Assembly: GCA_038729465.1 (NCBI GenBank)
Contig: JAVYRZ010000010.1
Span: 1 to 36,406, forward strand
Direction: 5' to 3'
Origin: Thermoplasmata archaeon
Lineage (GTDB): Archaea; Thermoplasmatota; Thermoplasmata; Thermoplasmatales; ARK-15
DNA length: 36,406 nucleotides
Positions 13,570 through 19,244 of the stretch are shown here, piece by piece. A program made the translations under genes and the position numbers. The notes below the pieces were generated by a model, which made no database searches, was not told the origin of the DNA, and saw nothing but the letters and a program-made list of their open reading frames with translations. Each line of letters starts with the position of its first letter. Position 1 is the stretch's first letter.

Positions 13570-14043
13570 ATGGATCGTATATTTGCGCCCTGGCGTATCG
13601 AATATGTCCGAACACCAAAAACAGATGAGTGTATATTTTGCAACGCTTTTGAAAAAGAGAGAAATATAATAATAGACAGTACAGAACATGCTTTGATATT
13701 AATGAACAAATATCCATATAATCCTGGCCATGTTCTTATTGCTCCGACAAGGCATGTATCAGAATTTGAATTGCTTTCTGCTGTTGAATTAAGTGAAATA
13801 GCAGAGTTTATGCAAAAGATCATCATGGCTATCAAGAATGCAATGCACCCTGACGGTTTCAATGTTGGCATAAACATAGGAACTGTTGCTGGTGCTGGCT
13901 TCAAAGATCATTTGCATGTTCATATAGTGCCAAGATGGAATGGAGACACGCATTTTATGCCCGTATTCTCAGATACAAGAGTGATCAGCCAGGCGATTGA
14001 GGATACTTATAATGAAATTAAAAAGGAGTATGATAAACTATGA
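13570..14043 (+). CDS. HIT family nucleotide hydrolase/phosphorylase
   Basis: This 157-residue protein has the histidine-triad motif HLHVHIVPRW (His114, His116, His118) and the N-terminal CIFC pair (Cys21, Cys24) of zinc-containing HIT proteins. HIT enzymes cleave nucleotidyl phosphates such as Ap4A or AMP-linked compounds by a nucleotidyl-His intermediate. Archaeal members of this branch are often labelled Ap4A phosphorylase/hydrolase-like. The exact substrate is open. The stop overlaps the moaB start by 4 nt (ATGA), so the two form an operon. Confidence 0.92.
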   Translation: MDRIFAPWRIEYVRTPKTDECIFCNAFEKERNIIIDSTEHALILMNKYPYNPGHVLIAPTRHVSEFELLSAVELSEIAEFMQKIIMAIKNAMHPDGFNVGINIGTVAGAGFKDHLHVHIVPRWNGDTHFMPVFSDTRVISQAIEDTYNEIKKEYDKL

Positions 14044-14528
14044 GCGTGAAAGATCATAAAGAACATGATTATGTTTTGACATTTGGAGTAATAACAGCGA
14101 GCAGTACCAGAACTGAAAAAACAGATGACTCTGGAAAGCTAATAATCGATTTGATTTCTAAAGCTCATAAACTTGTATATTATAAAGTGGTGAAAGATGA
14201 CATTGCAATGCTGAGAGACGCCGTATTAGAGACCAATTGTGATTTCTTGATAGTAAATGGGGGAACAGGGTTGAGCAGATTTGATCTTACTGTAGAGGCA
14301 ATTAAACCATACTTTACAAAAAATATTGACGGGTTCGGAGAGTTATTCAGAATGATTAGTTACAAAGAGATTGGCAGTGCAGCAATGATGAGCAGGGCCT
14401 CTGCAGGATTGATAAATAAGAAGATAGTATTTATAATTCCTGGCTCACCTGCCGCTATTGCAAGTGCAGTAAAAGAGCTTATTATGCCTGAAATAAGCCA
14501 TATTTACTATGAACTGAACAAGGAATGA
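14040..14528 (+). CDS. moaB: MoaB/MogA-like molybdopterin adenylyltransferase
   Basis: This is a 162-residue MoaB/MogA fold protein. VNGGTGLSRFDLTVEAI is the conserved GGTG motif that binds molybdopterin or AMP. IPGSPAAIASAV, near the C-terminus, is the second family signature. The enzyme adenylylates molybdopterin in the cytoplasm before metal insertion into the molybdenum or tungsten cofactor. It is translationally coupled to the HIT gene; a functional link between the two is not known to me. It faces fixX convergently, with only 4 nt between the stop codons. Confidence 0.92.
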   Translation: MSVKDHKEHDYVLTFGVITASSTRTEKTDDSGKLIIDLISKAHKLVYYKVVKDDIAMLRDAVLETNCDFLIVNGGTGLSRFDLTVEAIKPYFTKNIDGFGELFRMISYKEIGSAAMMSRASAGLINKKIVFIIPGSPAAIASAVKELIMPEISHIYYELNKE

Positions 14529-17081: not shown

Positions 17082-18014
17082 TTATGGTTTTAGCTCTTTT
17101 TTGATTGCTTTTACTTCTTCACCTGAAGGATGGTATGGGATATTATACACTGCTTTACCGGGCCTTTCATTATAGTAAGGCCTGTTACAACCCTTGCAAC
17201 CAGAGGTCATAAATGCAATTCCTTCATTAATTATTTTATCAAGGTTTTCAAATACAATGTTTTTAAGCATGTTGTTTTCAAACTCAAAATTTTGGATCTT
17301 TGCATCGTAATTTTCTATAAGGTACCTTGCCAGCTGCACTTTTCTGTATCTGTTCAGGTTCGGTGCCTCCAAGTTCAAATTTCTGTTGACCGGAGTATAA
17401 GCGAAAAGTGCAATGCTGATCTCTGCATCTTTTAGTCTTAACATCAATTTAATCAAGTCTCTGTCATTTTCTCCGAGCCCTACAATAAGGTGTGTGTTCA
17501 CATGCTCAAATATTTTTTTGGCATTTAAAAGTGCGTTCCAGTGTTCTTCCCAAGTAAACCTATTACCTACCATACGTCCTTTGTATTTTTCAAACAGTGG
17601 TGGTGTGGCAGCATCAAGGGCAAAGCTGATCGTGTCTACATAATCTCTGAACAGGATCATTGATGCATTGGAGATTGGAGTTATCGAAATGGAGATTGGC
17701 ACGTTCAAATTTTTCAACCTGCTCAAAAATTCAAGAAGCTCTTTCTCTACACCGAGATAATCTAAAGTCTGAACACAGATCCTAGCTAATTTGCTCACTC
17801 TTAATTTCTCTATTACCAGATCTGTATCATATGAGAACCATGGTACTCTAGAAAGCATATTTTCTTGCGCGTGAGAATATGCCTGCGCACAAAAAGAGCA
17901 ATTTGAATTACATTTTTCACCAAACATTATGTATATTGTGGATACTGGAAAATTCAAGTTACCAGGCTTGAGACCCAGGTATATAGCAGATGCTAACGAT
18001 AATTTAACATTCAT
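17082..18014 (-). CDS. Radical SAM protein, biotin synthase-related (LipS-like candidate)
   Basis: This 310-residue radical SAM enzyme carries CNSNCSFCAQ (C-x3-C-x2-C) near residue 35 for the catalytic [4Fe-4S] cluster, followed by a TIM-barrel-like pattern. The C-terminal GCKGCNRPYYNERP adds a second Cys pair that could hold an auxiliary cluster. The overall look is biotin synthase-related. Archaeal two-part lipoyl synthases (LipS1/LipS2) belong to this kind of protein and would use an auxiliary cluster as sulfur donor. That match is a suggestion, not shown by the sequence. It is divergent from the ModE-Nudix gene and followed by the nitrilase gene. Confidence 0.8.
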   Translation of the reverse strand: MNVKLSLASAIYLGLKPGNLNFPVSTIYIMFGEKCNSNCSFCAQAYSHAQENMLSRVPWFSYDTDLVIEKLRVSKLARICVQTLDYLGVEKELLEFLSRLKNLNVPISISITPISNASMILFRDYVDTISFALDAATPPLFEKYKGRMVGNRFTWEEHWNALLNAKKIFEHVNTHLIVGLGENDRDLIKLMLRLKDAEISIALFAYTPVNRNLNLEAPNLNRYRKVQLARYLIENYDAKIQNFEFENNMLKNIVFENLDKIINEGIAFMTSGCKGCNRPYYNERPGKAVYNIPYHPSGEEVKAIKKELKP

Positions 18015-18109
18015 TTCACCCAGATATCGAAACCAATTATTAAAAATATTTGATTTTGAATTTAAAAAAGTTATAAATATGCAATTTTTATATATTCTTC
18101 TGGTAGAGT

Positions 18110-18811
18110 ATGAATATAAAATTTAAGATCTGGCTAGAGCACGATAATAGGTACGTTTTAGGAGAGGGTTCTTATGCGCTTTTAAAAAAAATAGATGAGC
18201 TAAAAAACTTAAAAGCTGCAGCAGATTCACTAAAAATGTCATATCGTTATGCTTGGGGGGTAATAAAGAAGATCGAAACTGCATATCAGCAGAAAGTTGT
18301 AATCGCTGAAAGAGGGGGAATTGGAAGAGGAAACACAAAGTTAACTGCACAAGGCCTAAGTTTAATTAATGATTATGAAAAATACTTTAACATTTTTACA
18401 TATTATTCAACCAGGCCATACAAATTACCATCAGTTGCTGTAGATGGAATACTTATTATTAATGATAACATAACGCTTGTAAAGAGGAAAAATGAACCTT
18501 TTAAAGGTTATCTAGCGCTGCCGGGGGGATTTGTAGAATATGGAGAGAACTTAGAATCTGCGGTTGTGAGAGAGATCTTTGAGGAAATTGGAATAAAAGC
18601 TAGGGTTGAACGGTTACTTAACGTTTATTCAGATCCATATCGTGACCCGAGAGGGCATGTTATCTCTGCAGTATATGTATTGGAAGCAATTGGAGGATCT
18701 TTAAGAGCGGGTGATGATGCAGAGTCGGTGTTATTATTATCTAGGGACCAGATTCCAGTACTGGCATTTGATCACAATAAGATTATAGAATACTTTTTCA
18801 ACTCTAGATAA
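18110..18811 (+). CDS. ModE-type winged-helix domain fused to a Nudix domain
   Basis: This is a two-domain protein of 233 residues. Residues 1-95 look like the ModE N-terminal DNA-binding domain (GSYALLKKIDELKNLKAAA, then MSYRYAWGVIKKIE, and a GG-x-GRGNTKLTAQG wing). Residues 105-233 are a Nudix domain with an intact box at 140-162: GGFVEYGENLESAVVREIFE followed by EIG. The catalytic Glu residues are present, so hydrolysis of a nucleoside diphosphate derivative such as ADP-ribose is possible. The order is HTH first, opposite to NrtR regulators. It is probably a metabolite-sensing repressor, possibly of the divergent radical SAM gene. That role is inference. Confidence 0.88.
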   Translation: MNIKFKIWLEHDNRYVLGEGSYALLKKIDELKNLKAAADSLKMSYRYAWGVIKKIETAYQQKVVIAERGGIGRGNTKLTAQGLSLINDYEKYFNIFTYYSTRPYKLPSVAVDGILIINDNITLVKRKNEPFKGYLALPGGFVEYGENLESAVVREIFEEIGIKARVERLLNVYSDPYRDPRGHVISAVYVLEAIGGSLRAGDDAESVLLLSRDQIPVLAFDHNKIIEYFFNSR

Positions 18812-19025: not shown

Positions 19026-19244
19026 TCACTCGATCTTGGTATTTATCCTGAAAATTACTCCTGTACCCTTTAGAGAAAGATAAAGCTTTGTAACTGTATC
19101 ATTATACTCTTGCTCACTGTCAAACTCTTTTACAAAATCAAACTGCCCAAATACTGACATAAAACCGCTCTCTTTTAAAATTTGTATGATCTCTAACGGA
19201 GATACGCCATCAGGACTAAAATATATTTTAACATATAATTTCAT
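19026..19244 (-). CDS. Small conserved-looking protein downstream of nusA
   Basis: This is a 72-residue product of unknown function. The alternation of beta-like (LYVKIYFS, GVIFRINTK) and helical (PLEIIQILKESG, EQEYNDTVTKLYLSL) stretches suggests a small ferredoxin-like alpha/beta fold. There are no cysteines or catalytic motifs. It follows nusA by 10 nt with its own AGGTGA-type ribosome-binding site just before the ATG, so it is the last gene of the RNA polymerase operon. A T run right behind its stop is a likely terminator. Confidence 0.65.
   Translation of the reverse strand: MKLYVKIYFSPDGVSPLEIIQILKESGFMSVFGQFDFVKEFDSEQEYNDTVTKLYLSLKGTGVIFRINTKIE

Follow-up and report, generated by a model that had tools for sequence, protein, structure and literature searches.

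In NrtR regulators (NF050029; structure 3gz8), a winged helix-turn-helix (HTH) and a Nudix domain from the ADPRase lineage share a single protein of about 240 residues. According to PMC6800001, the Nudix domain stands first and the HTH last, ADP-ribose relieves DNA binding, and one member, MsNrtR, has a changed Nudix box and is inactive. AraR of Bacteroides (5bs6) is also built from a Nudix-fold sensor and an HTH, again with the Nudix-like domain first, and its sensor binds L-arabinose according to the title of entry 5deq. In the NadM-Nudix enzymes (2qjo, 2qjt), a closely related ADPRase-type Nudix domain forms the C-terminus of a fusion that begins with an NMN adenylyltransferase. ModE (TIGR00637; 1b9m, 2ijl), finally, continues from its winged helix and long helix into TOBE/Mop domains. 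The TOBE domains of ModE bind molybdate.

The archaeal protein described here has the entire N-terminal winged helix of ModE, including the wing and the long helix, but carries a Nudix domain at residues 106–233 where ModE has its TOBE/Mop domains. Unlike in NrtR, the HTH comes first and is of the ModE type, not the NrtR type. It differs from the NadM-Nudix enzymes in having an HTH instead of the adenylyltransferase, and from AraR in the position of the Nudix domain, since residues 106–233 of the model align to AraR residues 10–142. Searches of open-licence papers brought up no description of the HTH-Nudix architecture. The sections available of a survey of the Nudix clan (PMC5389931) do not mention HTH or NrtR by those words, and those of PMC10311068 report Nudix proteins of Sulfolobus acidocaldarius in which no HTH was found.

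Domain architecture of the protein

The gene lies on the plus strand at positions 18110–18811 of the window, the 36,406-nucleotide stretch of Thermoplasmata archaeon DNA that was analysed. It starts with ATG at 18110, encodes 233 residues and has full-length homologues. A first-pass annotation of this DNA had read the product as a ModE-like winged helix joined to a Nudix domain with an intact catalytic box, in the opposite order to NrtR, and all three parts of this reading have held. The AlphaFold2 model (67 sequences, mean pLDDT 90.7) contains two confident domains. Their relative placement is uncertain (pTM 0.58), and the interface is not fixed.

The N-terminal part (residues 1–101; 18110–18412) matches TIGR00637 (ModE_repress) over residues 17–95 with an E-value of 6e-17 and 61.5 bits, which is under the curated cut-off of 98.5. 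The N-terminus also matches Pfam HTH_1 of the LysR type (E 9e-4, under the cut-off). At E ≤ 0.01, a profile built from 17 N-terminal domains retrieves three distinct PDB sequences and no others, each of them a ModE: 2ijl (4e-21), 1b9m (8e-15) and 1o7l (8e-15). Judged by these profiles, the N-terminal domain is a ModE winged helix. In the model, helices at residues 19–31, 34–40 and 45–59 are followed by wing strands (64–67 and 75–78) and a long helix (80–100). The motif SYRYAWG (residues 44–50; 18239–18259) marks the start of the third, or recognition, helix. This HTH is the sole ModE-type match in its own genome, which contains four Nudix matches.

The C-terminal domain (residues 106–233; 18425–18808) matches PF00293 (NUDIX) over residues 109–226 with an E-value of 2e-20, above the cut-off. 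Its Nudix box (residues 140–162; 18527–18595) reads GFVEYGENLESAVVREIFEEIGI and agrees strictly with the consensus GX5EX7REUXEEXGU. By sequence and fold, its nearest relatives are Aquifex 2yyh, Enterococcus 2fml, the ADPR-pyrophosphatase half of NadM (2qjt/2qjo) and NrtR 3gz8, with Z scores of 21.4 for 2yyh, 19.3 for 3gz8 and 17.8 for 2qjt in the fold comparison. P176, located 15 residues past the last glycine of the box (16 counting that glycine), is kept in at least 90% of the alignment rows, and R178, D179, P180 and R181 are invariant. A proline at about this place is said in PMC10311068 to mark ADPR hydrolysis. Taken together, these features place the domain in the ADP-ribose pyrophosphatase/NadM/NrtR type, and it is apparently a working enzyme.

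Distribution of the fusion and its separation from NrtR

The first-pass annotation had suggested a search for the same domain order in other archaeal genomes, and it is found there. A scan of genome contigs gave 522 related places, of which the best 80 were retained. Both domains are encoded at 66 of these best 80 loci, all archaeal by title; more divergent fusions in other phyla could fall outside the best 80 of 522. The fused loci belong mostly to Thermoplasmata/Thermoplasmatota, DHVE2/Aciduliprofundum or Methanomassiliicoccales, and some are titled just "Euryarchaeota archaeon" or "archaeon". The other 14 of the 80 encode the Nudix part alone or a Nudix domain with an unrecognised N-terminus. 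Near-full-length matches occur in 21 of 61 genomes, that is, the window's own genome and 60 relatives. The HTH-Nudix protein thus represents a family common to many related archaea and is not a lone freak.

A broader picture comes from 389 genomes sampled evenly across the phylum. Matches at 1e-20 are present in 275 of them and, among the matches listed, mostly cover the Nudix part alone. The ModE-type HTH matches 60 times across 58 of these genomes, and 34 of these matches lie within a full-length HTH-Nudix gene. The remaining 26 include standalone HTHs and also proteins that we take to be TOBE-type ModE, for example at loci L144 and L145.

Two variants of the architecture are found. In family f38 (L131, L161), Nudix, TFS and a standalone ModE HTH are separate genes that follow one another in this order on one strand. 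The TFS (transcription factor S) family was identified there via a homologue in L101. Nudix-only genes in several of L098–L110 overlap or abut a TFS gene. Family f30 (L122, L133, L135, L146) joins the ModE HTH to a C-terminal stretch of roughly 100 residues without a Nudix box. Its model (mean pLDDT 70.5) has a Nudix-like order of elements, and hhalign gives a weak probability of 51% for kinship with Nudix. A Pfam scan of three of the proteins found the HTH and nothing else, and the 50 Foldseek matches listed are nearly all ModE/LysR HTH chains, with no Nudix structure among them. As modelled, the C-terminal stretch of f30 may be a Nudix fold stripped of its catalytic box.

That the family arose separately from NrtR is well supported, because the domain order is opposite and the HTH belongs to a different family. 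NF050029 matches the window protein only at profile positions 9–151 of 245, via residues 96–228 in the Nudix half, whereas an NrtR-like protein from Selenomonas, used as a control, matches positions 3–226. The independent origin proposed in the first-pass annotation agrees with this. The gene of the control protein (L169:1522–2319, Selenomonas plasmid pSRC1) stands beside an isochorismatase-family gene and pncB, and its Nudix box looks intact. The family also appears to differ from NrtR in its context, as its recurrent neighbour is urocanase and not NAD-salvage genes. The NAD context was sought with two query genes from L169, one nicotinamidase-like and one a partial PncB, whose proteins have no match at 1e-4 within the limited flanks of 67 loci. 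Read most simply, these sequence comparisons suggest that a ModE HTH became fused to an ADPRase-type Nudix domain in Thermoplasmatota or close to that phylum, in an event separate from the one that produced NrtR. An unrooted tree was built from 132 columns of 89 Nudix domains (L094, identical to L022, and L105, a faulty reading, left out), and many of its forks are weak. On it, the fused state needs 8 changes, at least 2 of which are forced by supported branches. One fusion with subsequent losses or several fusions may each account for this pattern.

Catalysis, DNA binding and probable function

The catalytic core GX5EX7REx2EE is present in 67 of 67 aligned fused proteins, and the strict box in 58. 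This distinguishes the family from MsNrtR, in which the core is lost together with the activity, according to PMC6800001. The recognition-helix motif SYR..W is retained in 63 of the 67; the exceptions are L075, L090, L093 and L094, all four of which retain the Nudix core. In L022–L026, relatives of the window's own order, the Nudix core is kept and the N-terminus is degraded or unrecognisable (L022 and L094 are identical in sequence). Because the box is universal, the motif nearly so, and the N-termini of L022–L026 degraded, selection within this set appears universal on catalysis, and strong but not universal on DNA binding. This pattern suggests that the protein has both functions and that, in lineages with a decaying HTH, the enzyme can do without it.

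The idea of a bifunctional regulator and hydrolase, raised as one option in the first-pass annotation, gains plausibility from the catalytic residues, which every fused relative has kept intact. An ADP-ribose-type hydrolase that is also a DNA-binding regulator, with targets shifting between lineages, is the best explanation, and its chances are about even. The ModE part would dimerise through the long C-terminal helix (80–100) and bind DNA, and the Nudix part would bind and hydrolyse ADP-ribose or a related nucleotide. Filling of the Nudix pocket would alter DNA binding, such that the protein would both report and clear its own signal. The target genes would differ by lineage, the hut operons for histidine breakdown being the best candidates in some. 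This explanation is favoured by the ModE identity, the ADPRase-like Nudix domain, the conserved residues, P176, the linkage to urocanase (14 of 64 loci) and the split genes of f38. Against it stand the absence of an operator, the loss of SYR..W in several lineages that keep the box, the pTM of 0.58, the unlinked urocanase of the window genome, and the nature of the commonest neighbours of all, which do not suggest themselves as targets.

The main rival is a housekeeping ADP-ribose pyrophosphatase whose ModE part serves dimerisation only or is a relic in decay, without any specific regulation. Such an enzyme would account for the many Nudix-only homologues in the phylum and for the contrast between the HTH motif, which is repeatedly lost, and the Nudix box, which persists in all 67 fused proteins and in 5 of 5 relatives with a degenerate HTH. 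The recurrent neighbours, mostly housekeeping genes, also suit it, as does the operator search. Exact dyads (arms of 5 and 6, spacers of 0–12) in the 140 nt upstream of all 67 genes, and in the same stretch for the 17 nearest, revealed no operator or conserved palindrome; the commonest dyad occurs in 3 sequences, against a maximum of 3 after shuffling. However, the recognition helix and the wing are strongly conserved (62–63 of 67) over deep divergence, and dimerisation alone would need neither. The housekeeping enzyme is a possible but less probable explanation than the bifunctional regulator.

Gene neighbourhood and candidate targets

Neighbours were counted with the protein's own ORF forced, at 67 loci, 64 of which have an upstream neighbour. 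In 14 of these 64, the HTH-Nudix gene is directly preceded on its own strand by urocanase (HutU), with gaps of 0–104 nt; in L061 urocanase is next but one. The HutU-linked loci are not confined to a single clade of the tree, and in some of them formiminotransferase genes follow further upstream in the same run. Urocanase is an NAD-dependent enzyme. It is conceivable, though rather improbable, that the protein is a local regulator of histidine breakdown, with the urocanase/hut operon as the ancestral target and a Nudix domain sensing a linked nucleotide. The window genome does encode a urocanase; however, it is unlinked to the HTH-Nudix gene, and apart from L061 no hut gene is nearby at the other 50 of the 64 upstream positions. 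Aligned with one another, the intergenic regions of three hut operons contain TATA-like stretches and no testable operator.

On the other side of the gene, an ORF of 72 residues, c1 (19026–19244, minus strand, convergent), is a recurrent partner. At 21 of 67 loci it is the next gene downstream, and there it often overlaps the 3' end of the HTH-Nudix gene. When two lists of matches in the phylum sample are compared, the nine best-scoring c1 matches (at least 94 bits) all adjoin a Nudix gene. The ORF has no Pfam match, and its profile finds weak matches in the PDB, the best of which (E 6e-4, a copper ATPase) was set aside. A second, more distant c1 copy is present in the same genome (G000:C2:104868–105089). 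In the window's order, the HTH-Nudix gene faces an RNA polymerase operon, an arrangement that seems to be inherited from a common ancestor. In 5 of 67 loci, the gene is followed by an Lrp/AsnC regulator.

Upstream of the window gene, a radical SAM gene (17082–18014, minus strand) diverges across the 95-nt intergenic region (18015–18109) that the first-pass annotation had described; no operator common to this region and those of relatives was found. The gene is identified as LipS2 by NF053743 (303.4 bits, cut-off 270). LipS2 and LipS1 together make up a two-protein lipoyl synthase, as stated in the titles and abstract openings of the pertinent papers. The same annotation took this neighbour as the obvious target of a nucleotide-sensing repressor and asked whether a neighbourhood of radical SAM and nitrilase genes is conserved. 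The divergent layout fits this proposal in the window, but among 64 loci LipS2 occupies the upstream position in 1, namely the window itself, and it is present in 2 of 67; a nitrilase is near the gene in 1 of 67. With these counts, the divergent LipS2 gene is not conserved as a neighbour, and LipS2 and the nitrilase were rejected as targets. In three same-family relatives with readable upstream genes, the nearest or next-nearest divergent gene encodes a GTPase. LipS1 is located elsewhere in the genome (G000:C2:53689–54498), unlinked to LipS2. Regulation of LipS2 is very improbable. A molybdenum- or tungsten-linked regulator in the ModE tradition is the least probable of all: the HTH type, a MoCF_biosynth gene in the window (14040–14528) and ORFs of about 672 residues, presumably molybdopterin-oxidoreductase-like, some 1.7–2.4 kb upstream in the same-family relatives L031, L032 and L056 speak for it, but these ORFs are clustered in three loci only, and the window protein has no TOBE or molybdate-binding domain, whereas what we take to be TOBE-type ModE proteins exist in the phylum (L144, L145).

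The bifunctional regulator and hydrolase also has a more far-reaching form, which is doubtful at present. The family could represent a separate archaeal invention, a transcription factor built on a Nudix domain and able to degrade the ligand it senses: ADP-ribose or a relative would set ModE-type binding, and hydrolysis would reset the switch. Within the phylum, this factor would have been rewired to other genes, split, stripped of its HTH or, in f30, perhaps stripped of catalysis to become a pure sensor.

Without a regulatory role, the protein would be a hydrolase of the ordinary kind whose N-terminus is unusual. If it does regulate, the bare label "NUDIX hydrolase" would be refined for a family that is widespread in the Thermoplasmata phylum (Thermoplasmatota), with close relatives among Methanomassiliicoccales and organisms that bear the name Aciduliprofundum. 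Transcription factors that sense nucleotides through a Nudix domain would then have arisen more than once, in archaea with another DNA-binding part and the opposite polarity.
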